Assembly: GCA_913057205.1 (NCBI GenBank)
Contig: CAJXNO010000004.1
Span: 1-64,000, forward strand
DNA length: 64,000 nt
DNA from: an uncultured Flavobacteriales bacterium
GTDB taxonomy: Bacteria; Bacteroidota; Bacteroidia; Flavobacteriales_G; Salibacteraceae
Direction of reading: 5' to 3'
The notes below the pieces were generated by a model. That model saw only the letters and a list, made by a program, of their open reading frames with translations. It was not told the DNA's origin and did not search any database. Shown one piece after another: positions 40,275 through 49,750 of this stretch (position 1 is the stretch's first letter; each line of letters opens with the position of its first letter). Both the position numbers and the translations under genes were made by a program.

Positions 40275-40556
40275 TTATTCACCAGTTACGATGGTTTCGT
40301 AAGTGATGAGCAAGTTCAAAATGTTGCTTTGCTTGATGTCTACAGTAGAGATCTTAGTGATTCCACCGTTTTTAGCAGCAGTGCGGATACTAGCGTCAGC
40401 GTCAAAGAAAAGAACGCCGAGGTAACCTGTAGCTGATGCCGTTCCTACTTTGCTACCAACTGGGTTGCTGGTTGCGTTAACAGGAAGCGTTAGTGAGCAG
40501 CTAGAAACAAATGCTGCAACGGTCAGCAAAGCCAAAACTGATTTTACTTTTTTCAT
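40275..40556 (-). CDS. TRL-like small lipoprotein
   Basis: This 93-aa product has a lipoprotein signal (AFVSSC, lipidated Cys20) and the TRL-like family pattern LPVNATSNPVGSKVGTASAT, then ADASIRTAAKNGGITKISTV ending LLITYETIVTGE. Family members are small periplasmic lipoproteins of unknown function. A strong terminator follows directly, so it is a single-gene transcript, possibly abundant. Confidence 0.85.
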   Translation of the reverse strand: MKKVKSVLALLTVAAFVSSCSLTLPVNATSNPVGSKVGTASATGYLGVLFFDADASIRTAAKNGGITKISTVDIKQSNILNLLITYETIVTGE

Positions 40557-41020
40557 ATGTATTGAATTTAAGTTTCCTACTCATAAGGCTTTTCGGGTGC
40601 GCCCCGTTTTTTAGTGTGGGATCTGGACTCCACAATAAAATGATTTCTAGACGAAGAAAAGAGTCCATTACAGTGCTTTTTCCTCCGAAACTACTGCTCG
40701 AAAATATGCATTCAGAGACGAGTTCAAACTTTAAATCGGTGATTTTAAGCAGGTATTTTCAATCAAGCGGCATAGTGTTGGTTTAAAAGTTTCAAAAACA
40801 AGGATTTAACCTTTTACTTGCTGTTTTTTCGACTTGATAACATTCATTATTGGCTCATTCGAAATGCATTGACCCTTTTATAATCGATCACACGTTGATG
40901 CCGATGGATGTGGAAAGCAATCCCGATCTATTTCAGGCTACTGAGAGAAGTTGGTATAAGCTTGGACAGTTCTGAACCACCCATCATTTCAACCTAATCC
41001 AAGTGGGAAAGGGGAGTGAG
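40557..41020. other. 464-bp stretch without a recognised gene
   Basis: No frame here looks coding on either strand. The part next to the TRL-like start must hold that gene's promoter and leader. A weak hairpin CGGG/CCCG with six following T (40594-40612) could be a terminator on the + strand, but no + gene precedes it. Confidence 0.5.
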
Positions 41021-42367: not shown

Positions 42368-42522
42368 GATGCTTTATTTGGTAGATACTCAGGTTTTCTT
42401 TTGTTCACTTTACGCGGATGCGTATGATCGGCGAAAATAAGGAGTTGAGGATTCTCAATCCGAAGGGAGTTGGATTCTTTGCTGGGTGATGGATGCTCAA
42501 CCTAAGTTGATGTTGTTTGGCG

Positions 42523-42552
42523 AGGTGCTTTAGCCTTAGTTTGCAAACGTTC
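42523..42552 (-). repeat. attC-like half-site closing the cassette array (element Z)
   Basis: The strand opposite reads GAACGTTTGCAAAC TAA GGCTAAAGCACC, the same R''-spacer-L'' order as the other elements. Its outer 14 bases pair 12/14 with 43137-43150 at the other end of the ParDE cassette. A second arm is not recognisable, so the site is degenerate or truncated. It overlaps the ParE stop codon by 1 nt. Confidence 0.6.
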
Positions 42553-42845
42553 TATTCCTTAAATATTAGATGTATGTCTTGTCTTCCAATGATAGACATG
42601 ATCTCAACAGTTTCATTTGCGACTCTGTAAAAGACGCTTTCAATACCGCAGACAGATCTTCTGTAACCGGGTCGAATGTGATCAATGGCTTCAAAGGCCA
42701 AAGGTCTCTGTGCGATAATTTCGAAATGATTGAATAACGCATCGAGATAGTTGTCAGCTTGTGCTTGACCTAACTTGACGATAACGAATTGATATATTCT
42801 GATTAGGTCTTCATTCGCCTGAACAGAGAGTTTATAATTAGGCAT
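42552..42845 (-). CDS. parE: ParE/RelE-family toxin
   Basis: This 97-aa protein starts at 42845 (MPNYKLSVQA). It shows the ParE order: ANEDLIRIYQFVIVKLGQAQ, FNHFEIIAQRPLAFEAID, PGYRRSVCGIESVFYRV, EIMSIIGRQD. ParE proteins inhibit gyrase and RelE relatives cut mRNA; these motifs fit ParE better. It overlaps the antitoxin gene by 8 nt as usual for such pairs. In this window the pair occupies the last cassette of the array, which may help to stabilise the array, an inference known from chromosomal integrons. Confidence 0.88.
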   Translation of the reverse strand: MPNYKLSVQANEDLIRIYQFVIVKLGQAQADNYLDALFNHFEIIAQRPLAFEAIDHIRPGYRRSVCGIESVFYRVANETVEIMSIIGRQDIHLIFKE

Positions 42846-43077
42846 CAAGACGCTTTTTTGCAGCAGCTTTGATGTCTTCCTTTGAGACATTGGAGAACCC
42901 ACTCTTCTCGGCCGACTCAAGTTTCATTCTCAACCAGTCAACTTGTTGTTGCTGCTTTCGAGCTTGTCGAATGAGATCATTAACCAATTCACTTTTACTA
43001 GAATATTCGTTATTGTCAACTTGACTCTTAAGCCATTGATCGTTTGGTTCGGTGAGAGAAATACTTTGTCTAGCCAT
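42838..43077 (-). CDS. parD: ParD-family antitoxin
   Basis: This 79-aa protein starts at 43077 (MARQSISLTEPNDQWLKSQV). The N-terminal ribbon-helix-helix (SISLTEPNDQW, NEYSSKSELVNDLIRQA) binds DNA, and the C-terminal helix (SGFSNVSKEDIKAAAKKRL) wraps the toxin. ParD usually represses its own operon. It precedes parE with an 8-nt overlap. Confidence 0.88.
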   Translation of the reverse strand: MARQSISLTEPNDQWLKSQVDNNEYSSKSELVNDLIRQARKQQQQVDWLRMKLESAEKSGFSNVSKEDIKAAAKKRLDA

Positions 43078-43136
43078 TGTAGTCACATTTGATGTAAAAA
43101 TACACCAAAAATGCATCAGCATGAAATTTCTTTCTT

Positions 43137-43275
43137 GAATGTTTGCTAACGGTTTGGCTATGGAATGTGCGGCTCAAGAACCTGGTACTCCGTAGCTGAG
43201 ATGATTGTGATTGAAAGATAGGAATCTGAATGATTTCGTGGGAAGTAGCATGTTCTATAGCCTTAGTTGTGCTCA
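43137..43275 (-). repeat. attC-like recombination site (element A)
   Basis: The imperfect inverted repeat has left arm GGCTATGGAATGTGC and right arm GCATGTTCTATAGCC. Its outer boxes are GCTAAC (43145-43150) and GTTGTGC (43266-43272). On the coding strand of the cassettes it reads ...GCACAAC TAA GGCTATAG ... CATAGCC AAACCG TTAGC, with unpaired spacers of 3 and 5 nt as in asymmetric attC sites. It lies between the parD start and the stop of the lipoprotein cassette. It shares the internal 12-mer GATTGAAAGATA with element C. Confidence 0.75.
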
Positions 43276-43280
43276 GTTAT

Positions 43281-43823
43281 TTATTTTTTTATCCATAGGT
43301 TCTTTTCAAATTCCATAGTCAAATTATCTGAAGTGTTTCCAGTAAAGGTGAATGTGTAAGAGGAGTCGTCAAGAGAAGAATTATCAATAAATTCTTGAGT
43401 AAAATGAATGTCAAAGTAAAGACCATCAACGGGTGAGTTAGTGTCTACATTGGTAAGCTCTAATAAATTGTAGCCGCTTTCAATTAGGTTTCCATTATAT
43501 TCAAATGACTTGTCTACGTTTAAAGAAAAAGTCTCATTGTCCAAGTGATTAATTTGCTCACGCGCACACGAAGTCGCATATACTGAATTCATTAAGGATA
43601 GTCCATTGAAACTGACTTGTTCAATTAAAAAATTGAATTGCACCCTAAGGAAGAAACTACCTGCCAAAGTGTCGAGGTCATCATTCATTTGATCTCCTTG
43701 GTAGGCAGTCAGTTTTCCTTCGCCCGTGTAGCGTTCTTCTATTTTGCAACAGCTTTGAAGTATACTCGACAGTATCACGACTGTATAGAGTCCAATAAGT
43801 GCCTTAAAGTAGATTGTTTTCAT
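43281..43823 (-). CDS. hypothetical lipoprotein (cassette gene)
   Basis: This 180-aa product has a lipoprotein signal (SSILQSCC). The mature part contains beta-strand-like segments and polar linkers (FFLRVQFNFLIEQVSFNGLS, YTFTFTGNTSDNLTMEFEKN). No family is recognised. Its codons are AT-rich compared with genes outside the array. The stop lies 6 bp from element A and the gene is framed by the complementary ends GTTGTGCTCA and TGAGCACAAC, so it is a one-gene mobile cassette. Confidence 0.6.
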   Translation of the reverse strand: MKTIYFKALIGLYTVVILSSILQSCCKIEERYTGEGKLTAYQGDQMNDDLDTLAGSFFLRVQFNFLIEQVSFNGLSLMNSVYATSCAREQINHLDNETFSLNVDKSFEYNGNLIESGYNLLELTNVDTNSPVDGLYFDIHFTQEFIDNSSLDDSSYTFTFTGNTSDNLTMEFEKNLWIKK

Positions 43824-43833
43824 TCTTATTAAT

Positions 43834-43970
43834 TGAGCACAACGGTTTCGTGTATAAGCAGTAGCGGATTAAAACCTATACGCTTTCAGAAAGAAAGATA
43901 CTTATTAAAAAATAATAGCGGTTCAAGTTTGCACCTAAACCGCTATTGCTTATACACTATGTTGTATGCC
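43834..43970 (-). repeat. attC-like recombination site (element B)
   Basis: The arms GTGTATAAGCAGTAGCGG (left) and CCGCTATTGCTTATACAC (right) pair with one mismatch over 18 bp. Outer boxes are GCACAAC and GTTGTATGC, with spacers GGTTTC and TAT. A nested repeat ATAGCGGTT/AACCGCTAT lies inside. It separates the orphan lipoprotein cassette from the Crp-regulator cassette. Confidence 0.8.
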
Positions 43971-43974
43971 GTTT

Positions 43975-44373
43975 TTATTCTTCTTTGTCTGCAGTTAAAT
44001 ATAACTTGCCCCAAGTTATTCTAGAAATAACAACCAATACAAGCACCATAATTGCAGGTACAGATAAATCAAAAGATTCTTCAATCATTTGGTGTGCTAT
44101 AAATGCGAGAAAAGCATTGAAAAAGTTACCTGCATAAGTCCACTCTTTTAGCCATTTTGGATTTGCTTTGATATCAAGTAAGATTGTTACAAGTGATATA
44201 ACGGCCATAAATTTTGTTACACCTAAAAGTGGATGCAACCAACGTGGAAAGTTGAGTAACTCGAAATAGTCAGACATAAAAGAATACTCTATAAAATAGC
44301 GTGAACCTCCTCCTAGATACATAAGAGCTAAAAGACTAGTTGTGATCCTGAAAATTAATTTGTTTTTGTTCAT
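43975..44373 (-). CDS. DoxX-like membrane protein (cassette gene)
   Basis: This 132-aa protein has four hydrophobic helices: LIFRITTSLLALMYLGGGSR, HPLLGVTKFMAVISLVTILL, FFNAFLAFIAHQMI and VPAIMVLVLVVISRI. The layout fits the DoxX-like family (DoxX_2/DUF4260-like small membrane proteins), which is tentative. It is the last of three genes in one cassette and starts 16 bp after the preceding membrane-protein gene. It probably acts in the inner membrane together with that protein. Confidence 0.65.
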   Translation of the reverse strand: MNKNKLIFRITTSLLALMYLGGGSRYFIEYSFMSDYFELLNFPRWLHPLLGVTKFMAVISLVTILLDIKANPKWLKEWTYAGNFFNAFLAFIAHQMIEESFDLSVPAIMVLVLVVISRITWGKLYLTADKEE

Positions 44374-44389
44374 TTTTTTAATTTTTGAA

Positions 44390-44983
44390 TTAGTAACCTA
44401 ACATTTTGAAAAATCCATTTATACCCATTGCCATAATTGGAAAAAATAACCCTGTTAATGCAGCAGCTACTATGGCAAAAATCCATTTACCACTTAATGG
44501 TGTTTTCTTTAAGCTTAAAGGTTTGTCTTTTTCGGATGCTATGAAATAGTTGCGAACTTTTGGTGTTAGTAGCAAGTAGAAAGCATAAAGTTCCAAAGCG
44601 AGATTGGTTAGCAACCAACCTGTTAGTACTAAACTAGGGGTGTTTTCGCCCATTGGACTTTTAAAAGGTGGTTGAAATATTTCAGTTACCAATCCTACTC
44701 CAAAGTCGGCTATGCCCCACCAAACCCAAGCTAAACCTATGGCATAGGTAATTATTTTGGGTCTTGTTGCTAATAAATACACAACAATAGGTGCTGTCAA
44801 GCCTATTAAAGCGTCTTGCCCAAGTGGAATTATCCATGCGGTGGGTAATACGTCTCCACCAAAAACCTCAATGCTTGGCATAAAGATGAAACCTAAAATA
44901 CGATAGGTCATCCAAGAGAGAATGATAAGGATGGTTGTTAGTTCTTTTGGTCTGTTTTTGACTGCATTCATTTTACTCTGCAT
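44390..44983 (-). CDS. multi-pass membrane protein (cassette gene)
   Basis: This 197-aa protein has five to six hydrophobic helices (ELTTILIILSWMTYRILGFI, ALIGLTAPIVVYLLA, IITYAIGLAWVWWGIADFGV, VLTGWLLTNLALELYAFYLL, IFAIVAAALTGLFFPIMAMG). I know no family name. It stands between a Crp-type regulator gene and a DoxX-like gene in the same cassette. A 16-bp palindrome lies 70-86 bp upstream, a suitable place for a regulator site. Confidence 0.65.
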   Translation of the reverse strand: MQSKMNAVKNRPKELTTILIILSWMTYRILGFIFMPSIEVFGGDVLPTAWIIPLGQDALIGLTAPIVVYLLATRPKIITYAIGLAWVWWGIADFGVGLVTEIFQPPFKSPMGENTPSLVLTGWLLTNLALELYAFYLLLTPKVRNYFIASEKDKPLSLKKTPLSGKWIFAIVAAALTGLFFPIMAMGINGFFKMLGY

Positions 44984-45053
44984 ATTATTGAATTAATAAT
45001 GCAAAGGTCTTATGAATTGGAATGGATAAAAATCTACTAGATTAAGAAAAGAA

Positions 45054-45069
45054 GTGAAACTAGTTTCAC
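45054..45069. promoter_or_regulatory. 16-bp palindrome after the Crp-type gene
   Basis: GTGAAACTAGTTTCAC is a perfect palindrome. It overlaps the stop codon of the Crp-family gene and lies upstream of the two membrane-protein genes. Dimeric Crp/Fnr proteins bind palindromes of this length, so it may be the site through which the regulator controls its cassette partners. Confidence 0.4.
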
Positions 45070-45647
45070 TTTGATTGCTTTTTTCTAAGTCGAGAAAGAT
45101 ATTGGGTGGTCATTCCCAAGTAAGAGGCAATGGTAAACTGTGGTACACGCTGTAGAAATTCAGGGTATTTTTCTACAAATTGTTCATACCGTTCTTCGGC
45201 AGTAAGTGTTAAACTAGCGATTAATCTGCGTTGCATAAAAGCAAGTCCTCTTTCTGCAACAGTTCTAAAAAAGGTTTCGAATTGATGGCTATGAGCTTTA
45301 AGTATTTGTTCATTTTCAAAATCCAATTGTAAAAGAGTACTATCTTCCAATGCTTCCACAAACATAGTAGCAGGTTTTTGATAGATATAACTATTCGGGT
45401 CTGAAATCCACCAACCGTCCATAGCAAGAGAAATCGTGTTTTCTTGTCCATCTTTACCAATTACATAAGCTTTGAATGTTCCCTGAACAACAAAAATTCG
45501 GTATTTAGCTATAAAGTCCGGTTGTATAATGAATTGTCTTTTTTTAACCTTTCGTTCTGTGAAATGAGAAACAAAAAAGGCAGCCTCTTTTTCTGTAAAA
45601 GAATGCTTTTCGATTAATTCGTTTTGAAGTGAATGAATTTCTGTCAT
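45066..45647 (-). CDS. Crp/Fnr-family transcriptional regulator (cassette gene)
   Basis: This 193-aa protein has an N-terminal cyclic-nucleotide-binding-like barrel (RKVKKRQFIIQPDFIAKYRI, VVQGTFKAYVIGKDGQENTI, WWISDPNSYIYQKPATMFVE). The C-terminal HTH (QRVPQFTIASYLGMTTQYLS) is of the Bacteroidota subgroup. It has no cysteine cluster like that of Fnr. It is the first gene of a three-gene cassette. A regulator travelling with its two membrane proteins is unusual for a cassette. Confidence 0.88.
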   Translation of the reverse strand: MTEIHSLQNELIEKHSFTEKEAAFFVSHFTERKVKKRQFIIQPDFIAKYRIFVVQGTFKAYVIGKDGQENTISLAMDGWWISDPNSYIYQKPATMFVEALEDSTLLQLDFENEQILKAHSHQFETFFRTVAERGLAFMQRRLIASLTLTAEERYEQFVEKYPEFLQRVPQFTIASYLGMTTQYLSRLRKKQSK

Positions 45648-45674
45648 TAATCTCTATTCTGTTGCTTTTCAAAT

Positions 45675-45810
45675 GGCATACAACGGTTTGGCTAAGAAAC
45701 GTGCGGCTTTAAAACCGTAAATTTCATCGCCAAGATGAATTTGGATTGAAAGATAAGTCGTGAATGTTTAACGTTCACTGAGTATGTTTGCTTAGCCTTT
45801 GTTGGCAACT
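45675..45810 (-). repeat. attC-like recombination site (element C)
   Basis: The left arm GGCTAAG (after AACGGTTT) pairs with the right arm CTTAGCC (before TTTGTTGGC). Outer boxes are GGCATACAAC and GTTGGCAACT. The internal stretch with GATTGAAAGATA (45744-45755) is shared with element A, which shows that A and C have a common origin. It lies between the Crp-gene start and the stop of the next cassette's gene. Confidence 0.75.
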
Positions 45811-45816
45811 GTATTT

Positions 45817-46308
45817 TTAATTCATTTCAATTATTACACTGTCTTTAATGATGGTAGAGTTATCTAGTTCTAACCTTCCTATTATCTTGTATTTTCCGCT
45901 ATTTGGCACTGAACTTTTAGAAGTTATTAAATACTGTAACCAAAAATTTTCTTCAAGATTTTCAATGGTGAAGTGTTGAGTAATGTCTGAATTTACTTCC
46001 ATCGTATCTTCATTTAATACAATCACATCACCCGCAAACAATTTCATTCCATTTTCAATTGGATAAGTGCTCCATGAATATTCACAAAATTCACCTGCTC
46101 CTTGATGAGTAAAATCAACAACAAAGTTGATGCTTCCATTTTGAAATTCATTTTCGTAGTAGCCATCTACATTTGACTCTCGATCAGTTTCAGTTGTTGT
46201 TACTGGAACTAAATTCATTTTTACTACTTTTCTTGAACATTCTCTCTTACAAGAATTGAAAATCGAAATTGAAAGGAGGATTAATATTTTAAATGCTCTT
46301 CTTTTCAT
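45817..46308 (-). CDS. hypothetical lipoprotein (cassette gene)
   Basis: This 163-aa product starts at 46308 (MKRRAFKILILLSISIFNSC); a longer frame would run through attC-like element D and is rejected. Lipidated Cys20 is followed by KRECSRKVV. The mature part looks like a beta sandwich (GYYENEFQNGSINFVVDFTH, SGKYKIIGRLELDNSTIIKD). No family is recognised. The gene is framed by GTTGGCAACT and AGTTGCCAAC. Confidence 0.6.
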   Translation of the reverse strand: MKRRAFKILILLSISIFNSCKRECSRKVVKMNLVPVTTTETDRESNVDGYYENEFQNGSINFVVDFTHQGAGEFCEYSWSTYPIENGMKLFAGDVIVLNEDTMEVNSDITQHFTIENLEENFWLQYLITSKSSVPNSGKYKIIGRLELDNSTIIKDSVIIEMN

Positions 46309-46310
46309 AT

Positions 46311-46376
46311 AGTTGCCAACGGTTGGGCTATGGTGCGTGTCCCATAGGGCATGCACTATAGCCTTTGTTAGGCAAT
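46311..46376 (-). repeat. attC-like recombination site (element D), shortest copy
   Basis: In 66 bp the arms TTGCCAACGGTTGGGCTATGG and TATAGCCTTTGTTAGGCAA give a compact hairpin. On the cassette coding strand it reads GCCTAAC AAA GGCTATAGTGCATG ... CATAGCC CAACCG TTGGCAACT. GCCTAAC fits the integron R'' consensus RYYYAAC exactly. Confidence 0.82.
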
Positions 46377-46389
46377 GTTTTTTCACTTT

Positions 46390-46710
46390 TCAAGGTGTAA
46401 TTTTCGGATGGTCAAAATCATTTGGTCCTTCAGTTCCTTTAATAAAGAACAGCACGATAATTAGCAGCTGTCCTATTGGAATAAGGATTAATAATGACCA
46501 CCAGCCGGATGTATTTATGTCATGTAATCTCCTAGCAGTCTGCATTAAATTTATAATGTAGTAAACCAATAAATAGAGTAATGAAATGACACCATATTGG
46601 GTAAAGGCAAGGAGAAAGGCAACTATTCCGCCAACAAGCAATAGAACTTGTACAAGTAAGTATTCAAGCTTATTAATCCTTCCTTTATAGGTCAATAAGT
46701 TCATTTTCAT
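46390..46710 (-). CDS. DUF805 membrane protein (cassette gene)
   Basis: This 106-aa protein has the DUF805 pattern: N-terminal TYKGRINKLEYLLVQVLLL, two to three hydrophobic helices, and the conserved ARRLHDINTSGWWSLLILIP. DUF805 proteins are small inner-membrane proteins of unknown role, often found on mobile DNA. The cassette ends GTTAGGCAAT and ATTGCCTAAC pair 10/10. Confidence 0.9.
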   Translation of the reverse strand: MKMNLLTYKGRINKLEYLLVQVLLLVGGIVAFLLAFTQYGVISLLYLLVYYIINLMQTARRLHDINTSGWWSLLILIPIGQLLIIVLFFIKGTEGPNDFDHPKITP

Positions 46711-46730
46711 CTAGATTTTATTTTTTAAAT

Positions 46731-46804
46731 ATTGCCTAACGTTCCGTGTATGGTGTCGTAGCATCCCGCAGGGTGCTATGCACTATACATATTGTTGTAA
46801 GCAG
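46731..46804 (-). repeat. attC-like recombination site (element E)
   Basis: In 74 bp the arms GTATGGTGTCGTAGCATCC and GGGTGCTATGCACTATAC pair with few mismatches. The outer box on the coding strand is GTTAGGC, which matches the integron R' consensus GTTRRRY exactly. The other outer box is GCTTACAAC. It separates the DUF805 cassette from the multicopper oxidase cassette. Confidence 0.82.
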
Positions 46805-46806
46805 TT

Positions 46807-48504
46807 TTAATTCACGATTATTTTTTTAACAAATCGGTCATTACCATATTCGAACATTATGAAATTAACCCCTTTAGGCATTTCTTCAATAGTTAGTTGT
46901 GAATTATCAAATTCTTTGATTGTCATTCGCTCTCTTCCCAATACATCATATACGATTATACTCGATGGGCGTTCACTAAAATTAATGGTAATTTTTCCAA
47001 TGGATGGGTTCGGAAAAATACTTATTCCCAAATCGTCAATTAGGTTGTCTGTAACTGACAAAGGGTTGGAAACAACAAATTGCCCCATCATTCCACCATC
47101 TTCGTGAGTCAGCATATGACAATGGTACATATAGGGTACAGAATCATTCGAAAACGTTTCAAATTTTGCTATGAAACGTACAGTTTCTTGTGGTCTAACC
47201 AGAACTACATCCTTTCTTCCTTGCTCATTAATTGCGGGAGCAACTCCATTTCTTGTTAAAATATAGAACTGTACATCGTGTATATGAAATGGGTGCGAAA
47301 TTCCTGATTGGTTAGTCAGTTCCCAAATTTCAGTATTATCAAGTGGTATTGTGTAGTTAATGACATTTAAATCCATTGTTGCTCCATTTATCAAGAATTC
47401 ACCATTAAGCTGATTTGGTCCCATAGTAACTGGTGAAAAAGTCAGTGTTCTTGTAATATTTGAATTAATTTCAGGAATAGGAGTAACAGTTACCAAACCA
47501 GATGGGATTGATGATATGGGATTAACTGTCTGTACTCCTACGTTAAATTGAAGAACATCAAAGTCAGCACCATTCAATGGGTTCGGATTATAACCAGTCA
47601 TTGTCATTCCAGCTCCCATACCTGGATTTGTCGCACCGTATATTCCATTTGGCAATTCAGAAGCATAACTTTTTAAAAATGCCGTTTGTCCGTTCATACT
47701 TGAAAAATCTATAAGTAATTCTGCTCTTTCTCCTGGTGCTAACAATAGTCTTGTTAATTGAACAGGTGCTGACAACAATCCACCATCAGAAGCTATTTGA
47801 TGAAAAGTTTGATTATTACTCAATCCAAGATTAAAAGCTCTTTGTGATGAACCATTTAAAACTCTACATCGTACTACCTGAGACGGCACATCTAAGAAAG
47901 GGTCTATTGTTGCGTTGACCATTACAATATCATCTGAATTTGAGTGTACTACGATTTGGTTACTACTGTCAAAATCTTTTGTTTGAATTACTAATGGGAA
48001 ATCATCAACACCATAAGTTCTTGGTAGAGCAAGAGCCGCTTCTGCGTTATCTTTTACTATTATCATTCCAGCAATCCCTTTTGAAACGTGTTTATCTGTA
48101 AAGTGATGCAAATGTGGATGATACCAATAAGTTGCAGCTTTATCTAAAATTGTGAAACTTGGCGACCAAGTTGTATTTTGTGGTATTGTAGTATGAGGTC
48201 CCCCATCATTTTCTGCTGATACGTGCATACCGTGCCAATGAATAGTAGTTGTATCTGCCAATTGGTTTGTAACATTAAAATTCACAAAATCACCTTGATT
48301 AAGTATTAATGTTGGCCCCAGAATATTGCCGTTTGCACCCATTGTGTTGGTTGACGATCCACTTAAAAATTGTTTTGTCCCATTTTGTAGGGTTAAATTG
48401 ATGTTTACCCCAGATAAAGTGTCTGGAATAATCAATGCGTTTTGGGCATTTCCTAAATGAAAAAATAGAATCCCAATTAGAGTAATAGTTGTTTTTTTTA
48501 TCAT
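46807..48504 (-). CDS. T9SS-exported multicopper oxidase (cassette gene)
   Basis: This 565-aa protein has a signal peptide (cut near GNA-QNA). It has three cupredoxin domains with all four copper-binding motifs: HWHGMHV (about residue 90), WYHPHLHHF (about 131), HPFHIHDVQF (about 405) and MYHCHMLTHEDGGMM (about 462). Copper or bilirubin-oxidase-like CueO enzymes have this layout. The last ~85 residues are a T9SS sorting domain (IFPNPSIGKITINF to KIIVN), so export uses the host's type IX system. It is the first cassette after the recombinase gene. Confidence 0.9.
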   Translation of the reverse strand: MIKKTTITLIGILFFHLGNAQNALIIPDTLSGVNINLTLQNGTKQFLSGSSTNTMGANGNILGPTLILNQGDFVNFNVTNQLADTTTIHWHGMHVSAENDGGPHTTIPQNTTWSPSFTILDKAATYWYHPHLHHFTDKHVSKGIAGMIIVKDNAEAALALPRTYGVDDFPLVIQTKDFDSSNQIVVHSNSDDIVMVNATIDPFLDVPSQVVRCRVLNGSSQRAFNLGLSNNQTFHQIASDGGLLSAPVQLTRLLLAPGERAELLIDFSSMNGQTAFLKSYASELPNGIYGATNPGMGAGMTMTGYNPNPLNGADFDVLQFNVGVQTVNPISSIPSGLVTVTPIPEINSNITRTLTFSPVTMGPNQLNGEFLINGATMDLNVINYTIPLDNTEIWELTNQSGISHPFHIHDVQFYILTRNGVAPAINEQGRKDVVLVRPQETVRFIAKFETFSNDSVPYMYHCHMLTHEDGGMMGQFVVSNPLSVTDNLIDDLGISIFPNPSIGKITINFSERPSSIIVYDVLGRERMTIKEFDNSQLTIEEMPKGVNFIMFEYGNDRFVKKIIVN

Positions 48505-48520
48505 TTTATTTTTTATTTAA

Positions 48521-48600
48521 TTGCTTACAACTTCGTTATAACGCAAATTAAGGATTTTATTCATCCCTTAATTTGCGGGATAACGAAGTGCTTTGTGTTA
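48521..48600 (-). repeat. attI/attC-like site at the recombinase end (element F)
   Basis: The most perfect hairpin of the set: ACTTCGTTAT (48530-48539) pairs with ATAACGAAGT (48580-48589), and CGCAAATTAAGG (48542-48553) with CCTTAATTTGCG (48566-48577), separated only by 2-nt internal loops. The outer box TTGCTTACAAC pairs 10/11 with GTTGTAAGCAG at the far end of the oxidase cassette. The right arm lies within the last 14 codons of the recombinase gene. It may be the primary insertion site. Confidence 0.75.
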
Positions 48601-49750
48601 AATTATTGTCCATTGGTAGACGTTGATGGAAGTCCTTCATCAGCGTGTCAAATGGGTTCTTTAAATGCATCAGGTGCTCACTGGCTACGTGGGTGTAGAT
48701 CTGTGTGGTTTCTGGTCTGGTGTGTCCTAGTAGCTCTTGCACGTACCTCAAATTTACACCTTCTTCTATCATGTGCGTGGCGAAACTATGTCGTAGCATG
48801 TGCGGCGTAACGTTCTTGTTTAACCGGGCTTTTTTCGCGGCGTTTTTTAGGATGGACCTTACACTCACTGCGCTGTATTGCGCGTTGCCTTGTCCGTTGA
48901 AAACGTAATCGATTGGGCGAAATTGGTTGATGTAATTGTTGAGTATGATGGCCATTTGCTCTCCCATGATCACCAAGCGGTCTTTTTTGCCTTTGGCTTG
49001 CTTGATCATCATGGAACGGTGGTCCAGATCCAGATCTTGTAGCCTTAAGTTTAAAAGCTCACTGATACGTAGGCCTGAACTGTAGATCAGACTCAGCATG
49101 GTTCGGTGCTTCAGGTTATTGCAACAACTCAAAAGTGCCATGATTTCGGTGCGCGTTAATACCTTGGGAAGGCGTTGCTCTTTCTTAGGACCCTCCACTT
49201 TGTCAATGACTAAAAGCGGTAGGTCATTGGCCTCAAACAGCATACGCATGGTGGTGATGAACTGTCGTTGGGTGCTGTTGGCATAACCGTTCTTTATAAG
49301 GTGATCGGTTTGGAAGTAGATAACGTCCTTGTTGCGGAGTTCTTTGGGGTCTTTTTGTGTGAAAAGGAAAAATTTGCGGGCAAGCTGTTCATAGGTGTCC
49401 ACGGTGCTTTTGCTTCGTCCTTTTATCTTGAGGTACCTCACTAAGTGTAAAATGGCTTCGGTTTGTGCTTCACTGAGCCGGTGACCTTTGATGGCAGACC
49501 AAGCCGCTTGTTGATCTCTCTTGTTCTGGAATTCTGCTGGCCAACGGAGATGAGCAATACCATCAAACTGTTCTTCAAGACTTAACAAGTTTTGCTTGGT
49601 GTCGGTTAAGTACCAGGCTCGATCTTCCGGACTCCAACGTGCCCGAATCTGTTTACACCGGTTGATGAGGTCTACGTCATAATCAAACCTTAGAAAGATA
49701 CGAGAGACCCCGTTCCTGTGCTCGAATGATATTCTAATGAATGGCAACAT
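48557..49750 (-). CDS. tyrosine recombinase at the head of the cassette array
   Basis: This 397-aa enzyme has an N-terminal extra domain (residues 1-75, FLRFDYDVDLINRCKQIRAR then WSPEDRAWYL), a SAM-like core-binding domain (about 95-180) and a catalytic domain with Arg228 (SGLRISELL), His317-x-x-Arg320 (TPHMLRHSF), His343 (LLGHT) and the nucleophile Tyr352 (IYTHV). The tail KNPFDTL resembles the SPLDxL tail of integron integrases. The roughly 20-residue insertion that marks IntI between the Arg and His boxes is not present. It is transcribed toward the cassettes, in their direction. Confidence 0.92.
   Translation of the reverse strand: MLPFIRISFEHRNGVSRIFLRFDYDVDLINRCKQIRARWSPEDRAWYLTDTKQNLLSLEEQFDGIAHLRWPAEFQNKRDQQAAWSAIKGHRLSEAQTEAILHLVRYLKIKGRSKSTVDTYEQLARKFFLFTQKDPKELRNKDVIYFQTDHLIKNGYANSTQRQFITTMRMLFEANDLPLLVIDKVEGPKKEQRLPKVLTRTEIMALLSCCNNLKHRTMLSLIYSSGLRISELLNLRLQDLDLDHRSMMIKQAKGKKDRLVIMGEQMAIILNNYINQFRPIDYVFNGQGNAQYSAVSVRSILKNAAKKARLNKNVTPHMLRHSFATHMIEEGVNLRYVQELLGHTRPETTQIYTHVASEHLMHLKNPFDTLMKDFHQRLPMDNNLTQSTSLSRKLRDE

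Follow-up and report, generated by a model that had tools for sequence, protein, structure and literature searches.

Integrons, such as the superintegrons of Vibrio, consist of an integrase (IntI), an adjoining attI site and an array of gene cassettes separated by attC hairpins, with the crossover at G|TT. In the IntI enzymes studied, the additional (I2) domain is required for cassette capture (PMC9668308, PMC7790495), and an absolutely conserved extrahelical G in canonical attC sites sets the choice of strand (PMC2727003). The domain and the extrahelical bases are both held to be essential for capture, and gain of the domain is the current account of integron origin (PMC7790495, PMC4792948). 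CTXphi and other XerCD-dependent elements likewise recombine folded single strands, with neither an I2 domain nor extrahelical bases (PMC4792948). A survey published in 2022 reported a single complete integron in the Bacteroidetes proper (PMC9024848). Here we analyse a 64-kb stretch of DNA from an uncultured bacterium of the Flavobacteriales (hereafter, the window), in which an array of gene cassettes adjoins the gene for a XerA-like tyrosine recombinase. This is likely to be an integron-type array of the Bacteroidia whose adjacent integrase recombines at G|TT; the enzyme, the strand used, the existence of free circles and activity are inferred.

Organization of the cassette array

The integrase gene (49750–48557), a hairpin and six cassettes (48531–42539) follow one another on the minus strand of the window, and every cassette has GTT at its start and AAC at its end. 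Cassette 1 (46794–48531; 5' arm GTTGTAAGCAATTA, 48531–48518; 3' arm AAACTGCTTACAAC, 46807–46794) encodes a multicopper oxidase, and cassette 2 (46367–46740; 5' arm GTTAGGCAATATTT, 46740–46727; 3' arm AAACATTGCCTAAC, 46380–46367) encodes a DUF805 protein. Cassette 3 (45801–46320; 5' arm GTTGGCAACTATAT, 46320–46307; 3' arm ATACAGTTGCCAAC, 45814–45801) contains a gene for a predicted protein (45817–46308), and cassette 4 (43961–45684; 5' arm GTTGTATGCCATTT, 45684–45671; 3' arm AAACGGCATACAAC, 43974–43961) contains genes for a Crp-like regulator, a membrane protein and a DoxX-like protein. Another predicted protein (43281–43823) is encoded by cassette 5 (43266–43843; 5' arm GTTGTGCTCAATTA, 43843–43830; 3' arm TAACTGAGCACAAC, 43279–43266) and a ParDE toxin-antitoxin pair by cassette 6 (42539–43150; 5' arm GTTAGCAAACATTC, 43150–43137; 3' arm GAACGTTTGCAAAC, 42552–42539). 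The distal end of the array is formed by a truncated attC (42500–42538, AACTAAGGCTAAAGCACC) that comprises only the R''/L'' half and lacks the L'/R' half. No recent duplication was found in the window's own array.

Five attC-type hairpins, all reading on the minus strand, lie between the cassettes. A covariance model (R1), built from other genomes with the window excluded, recovered two of the five at their exact AAC...GTT borders, namely the cores following cassette 1 (46741–46793, E = 0.011) and cassette 2 (46321–46366, E = 1.7e-6). Because this model detects mainly short-loop attCs, a core profile was used for the long sites; it recovered all five, together with a few false matches elsewhere, and none on the plus strand. 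The cores after cassette 3 (45685–45800) and cassette 4 (43844–43960; z = -4.3 on the plus strand) are also supported by DNA folding, whereas the core after cassette 5 (43151–43265) rests on the profile. The attC of cassette 2 is a near-perfect hairpin (z = -5.4 on the plus strand) with G.T wobbles on the plus (bottom) strand, and folding placed a bulge in two of the five sites. A generic hairpin finder was discarded as too noisy, as it gave equally many matches on reversed sequence. Elsewhere in the window, the Rfam DUF805 RNA motif (RF03081, 73.8 bits) is found at 40570–40638 on the minus strand, upstream of a small lipoprotein-like ORF (40275–40556) and not of the DUF805 cassette gene.

Matching ends of individual cassettes

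The two arms of each cassette are complementary to one another. Out of 14 positions, 12 pair in the oxidase cassette, 13 in each of cassettes 2 to 5 and 12 in the ParDE cassette, and a single mispair is shared by all six: position 11 is A in every 5' arm and C in every 3' arm. At positions 4–10, own ends pair at 41 of 42 positions; among the 720 permutations of 5' and 3' end assignments, the observed one alone reaches this value (the runner-up scores 37 and the mean is 18). When all AAC sites on the minus strand of the entire window are compared, five of the six cassettes have their own 3' end as the sole 7/7 match.

The same pattern was seen when cassettes were delimited solely by consecutive attC cores, using a profile from which both the arms and the tested locus were omitted. 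At least 8 of 9 outer positions were complementary in 82 of 98 such arm-blind cassettes, as opposed to 4.1% with swapped ends. In 60 further loci, where 148 cores were found compared to 11 on reversed sequence, own ends paired in 84 of 98 cassettes. Arm-based and core-based detection share training sites, though the arms were unscored in both arm-blind tests. Pairing of own ends continues to position 14–15 and falls to the background level at position 16. Position 11 is A.C in 68 of the 98 arm-blind cassettes and in 75 of the 98 from the further loci, and most of the others have A.G, which fits the third of three end types: 10 bp followed by A.C; 9 bp followed by A.A and A.C; and 9 bp followed by an extra base, a pair and A.C. 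In the third type (for example, at loci L102, L107 and L308/L309), the one extra base is at position 10 of the 3' arm and could possibly be an extrahelical T on the bottom strand within the R stem.

The first-pass annotation had proposed that each cassette within 43137–48531 is framed by its own complementary ends, which match within a cassette and differ between cassettes. Both statements hold, with all six end pairs present as described, and only the range has to be corrected, as the last (ParDE) cassette ends at 42539. The matches given for the oxidase (10/11) and ParDE (12/14) cassettes are correct, their imperfections being largely the constant A.C at position 11, plus one A.A in ParDE. 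The further suggestion, that pairing beyond the usual 7 bp is special, fails. In the integron of Vibrio sp. HDW18, analysed as a control, 44 of 51 cassettes are complementary at 8 or more of the 9 positions, so that own-end pairing in this canonical superintegron also reaches about position 10–12, where it fades, without a constant A.C. Own-end complementarity is therefore general to G|TT cassettes, which supports the logic of the annotation but is not new in itself. The window-type cassettes stand out not by a length of more than 7 bp but by arms of 14 nt in which position 11 is a fixed A.C.

Structure of the attC hairpins

In a set of 82 attC cores, A.C accounts for 142 of 260 mispairs and occupies core position 14 in 68 cores, and there are 155 wobbles on the bottom strand versus 24 on the top strand. 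DNA folding and this mispair asymmetry, as computed, both indicate better folding of the bottom strand. The L stem is without a bulge in 61 of the 82 cores and the bulged bases vary; the conserved extrahelical G in L'', a hallmark of integrons, is absent from these hairpins. An alignment of 22 cores shows strong covariation in the L stem, where both partners have changed in 14 of 16 pairs, and two fixed mispairs, that is, column pairs that are almost invariably A.C (one is unpaired in 22/22 cores and the other in 18/22).

The adjacent integrase

The gene next to the array (48557–49750, minus strand) encodes a tyrosine recombinase of 397 aa (Pfam Phage_integrase, 1e-44), in which alignment identified the catalytic residues R228, K253, H317, R320, H343 and Y352. 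Its match to the NCBIfam model TIGR02249 is below the cut-off (189 bits compared to 265) and split, with a gap at model positions ~181–237, and its match to NF040815 is above the cut-off (236 compared to 220). Alignments with PDB structures show that the IntI additional (I2) domain of ~43 residues is missing, with ~30 residues in place of the 73 found in VchIntIA. The spacing of the catalytic motifs is 63–68 in this family as opposed to 107–108 in IntI, and the aligned relatives of the integrase are 33–39% identical. In a tree of 33 sequences, IntI proteins form their own clade (support 100/99), with the new family outside it and only weakly united (62/40); in the same small tree, the family, IntI and archaeal XerA-like proteins are jointly separated from XerC/D (100/99). 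The core of the integrase is colinear over its length with XerA and other archaeal Xer recombinases (5hxy, 4a8e) and shares their short motif spacing. It differs from them in its linkage to cassette arrays and in the extra N-terminal domain of many members. The assignment of this protein as the array enzyme is by adjacency only, and some genomes carry several tyrosine recombinases.

The N-terminal domain of the window integrase (residues ~1–70) is confidently predicted (pLDDT about 90) to adopt a bb-a-bb-a fold. A HARP-like identity was unsupported, with only a weak Pfam match to DUF5710; Foldseek gave no match below E = 0.001, and the best hits of a second fold search (Z ~7; the N-terminal part of XPB and eIF1) were within the stated noise of the tool. 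As the domain is apparently missing in some array-linked integrases (for example, in G104, a 313-aa frame), it was kept out of the argument.

The attI-like site and cassette mobility

An attI-like hairpin (48530–48589, minus strand; z = -7.3) overlaps the last codons of the integrase gene, with the insertion point G|TT at 48531. The site is conserved after the integrase gene in relatives, as GTTATCC...TATAACNAG|TT, and in most of the close relatives of the integrase a hairpin ending in TATAANNAG|TT comes next, followed by cassettes.

The single 3.5-Mb contig of one relative, G511, contains 31 consecutive cassettes with matching ends. Ten pairs of copies in this genome are 99.8–100% identical, and the identity stops at GTT, give or take a few bases that match by chance. 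The cassette adjacent to attI (242322–241093) is 100% identical over 1230 bp to a copy located 28 kb away (214159–212930), with identity starting at the G of GTT and stopping at the next GTT. Given these exact GTT limits, cassettes do move: these copies show what the mobile unit is, where it is bounded and that attI serves as a target, and they establish mobility as GTT-bounded units in this relative from sequence alone. The conserved site and the copy inserted there identify the attI next to the integrase gene as an insertion point. A second tyrosine recombinase (328-aa frames) is present in G511 in five copies with near-identical scores (C1 195676–200492, 511294 and 2170707–2176171), and two of these copies are located at the array's far end.

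Ends are shared by homologous cassettes of Algibacter and G488 (90% identity), of loci L200 and L340 (74% identity), and of L107 compared with L209 and L221 (41–44% protein identity). Likewise, homologues of the ParDE cassette in G016 and G034 have ends nearly identical to those in the window. One cassette, 95% identical to its counterpart but set in a different context, has a 5' end that differs by a single base. Homologues of cassette genes located outside cassettes are without such ends. All-against-all comparison of cassette proteins yielded few homologous pairs. A MerT-like or heavy-metal-transporter-like gene (73–97% identical), encoding a membrane protein with a heavy-metal-binding C-terminus, is found in four cassettes (at L196, L046, L039 and L036) with four different end pairs. 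A gene can therefore acquire new ends, perhaps through re-capture or through formation of a new cassette. The expectation that the same gene always carries the same end pair in other genomes is thus partly met: ends generally travel with the gene, but "always" is too strong. The proposal of G|TT cassette recombination is supported, as all three predictions of the model (matching own ends, GTT boundaries and ends travelling with the gene) hold. The suggestion that the units were once circular is supported by the logic of the ends; the circles themselves were not observed and remain an inference.

Proposed mechanism and alternatives

We propose that each cassette carries its own recombination site, whose R' and R'' halves are the two arms. 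In a free circle, the arms would join onto the two ends of the attC hairpin, giving an R stem of 14 nt in which the adjacent XerA-like integrase would recombine at G|TT with attI or with another attC. Integration into linear DNA would split the R stem, leaving TT and R' at the 5' end and R'', the hairpin and G at the 3' end. Cassettes differ freely from one another in their end sequences, and selection for a site that can fold in each circle is therefore the probable reason why the two ends of a cassette stay matched. The polarity of the strands would seemingly be set by the fixed A.C mispairs, of which the R stem has one and the L stem usually two: only the bottom strand would fold into a continuous helix, because an A.C on the top strand is a G.T wobble on the bottom strand. 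Resolution would occur by replication, as in integrons, and wobbles or asymmetric spacers adjoining the crossover are candidates for the means by which cleavage of the second strand may be avoided without I2 and extrahelical bases. The role of the linked integrase as the enzyme, the use of the bottom single strand as substrate and the existence of circles are all inferred; no circle, excision or in vitro reaction has been observed, and the integron-type reading rests on sequence.

Alternatively, this could be a canonical array of attC sites whose IntI has been lost or acts in trans (CALIN), adjoining an unrelated Xer-like gene. The layout of cassettes and attCs equals that of integrons, and own-end pairing of this kind is also seen in the cassettes of Vibrio. 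However, a true IntI was found in only 1 of 247 Bacteroidia genomes, with no such cassettes nearby, and no recombinase above the IntI cut-off was found in eight array-bearing genomes. In addition, the same integrase family directly precedes attI and arrays in many families, and the conserved extrahelical bases are missing, which makes this explanation very unlikely. We give just as little credence to the possibility that host XerCD moves the cassettes at hairpins mimicking a double-stranded site, as in CTXphi, with the linked integrase being dispensable. The IntI domain is indeed absent from Xer enzymes, and a hairpin free of bulges could pass for double-stranded DNA (a point discussed in PMC4792948), but one integrase family is consistently linked with attI and arrays, and the tree places this family apart from XerC/D. 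Finally, the hairpins, which are stable and lie between genes, could be terminators or structured RNA, with the matching ends incidental to a transposon or to homologous recombination. This is all but excluded: the ends pair only within cassettes, the arms pair only across the whole gene, which a terminator would not need, and in G511 both breakpoints of the copies fall exactly at GTT, which effectively refutes it.

The integron-type reading with the linked integrase can be extended to a bolder one, which we favour by a narrow margin. In this version, cassettes would be captured throughout the class on folded single-strand sites by an I2-less Xer-like integrase, with polarity encoded as G.T wobbles instead of extrahelical bases, and the system would represent either a stage in the evolution of integrons that preceded I2 or an integron that was invented independently.

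Relation to known systems

The array resembles integrons in having an attI that adjoins the integrase, cassette-specific own ends and better folding of the bottom strand, and it appears to work like one, as inferred from sequence alone and with activity itself inferred. Of the features that define integrons, it has tandem cassettes separated by attC hairpins, ...AAC / GTT... ends and a mobile unit bounded at G|TT; it lacks an I2-domain integrase, the conserved extrahelical G in L'' and an integrase within the IntI clade, and for these reasons we do not file it as a canonical IntI integron. In contrast to integrons, it has fixed A.C mispairs instead of conserved extrahelical bases, its R arms are 14 nt long and have A.C at position 11, and its integrase gene points toward the cassettes. 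The likeness to CTXphi and similar elements lies in recombination of a folded strand, here inferred; unlike them, the array has its own integrase, an attI and arrays of cellular genes. Xer/pdif modules have 28-bp dif-like sites with two 11-bp arms, whereas the junctions here are hairpins of ~43–184 nt with GTT/AAC ends; no dif-specific search was made.

Distribution in the Bacteroidia

Relatives of the integrase were found in 37 of 120 related genomes at E <= 1e-60, and a profile (E <= 1e-90) placed the family in 206 of 395 high-quality Bacteroidia genomes, about half; the latter count may take in some related recombinases without arrays. In many families, the integrase gene directly precedes attI and arrays. 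Many of these loci are at contig ends, as is to be expected where repeats break assembly. Cultured hosts of such arrays include Winogradskyella ursingii, Algibacter onchidii and Seonamhaeicola aphaedonensis. The sole true IntI among the 247 genomes (loci L172/L175; G179:C40:3592–4530, 421.9 bits) has no 14-nt-arm cassettes near it and was therefore unusable as a control.

What appears to be new is an apparently I2-less integron-type system whose integrase is present in about half of the sampled Bacteroidia genomes, the enzyme, strand and activity being inferred. The full-text literature that was searched, which included no preprints and few subscription papers, contains no earlier description of such a system, and the existence of one is not excluded. 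If a system without the I2 domain and extrahelical bases does work, the origin of integrons becomes directly testable. The arrays pointed to across many families of the class imply a large uncounted pool of mobile genes, and the cassette ends provide a simple rule for finding such arrays.

A version of the system is plasmid-borne: in Chryseobacterium sp. SNU WT5, plasmid NZ_CP041688.1 (locus L354) carries the integrase, attI and cassettes. A tiny gene-less palindromic unit (GTTGGGAAAAATCGCC...GACGATTTTTCCCAAC) adjoins attI there and is repeated further on, and the array region also contains a group II intron.
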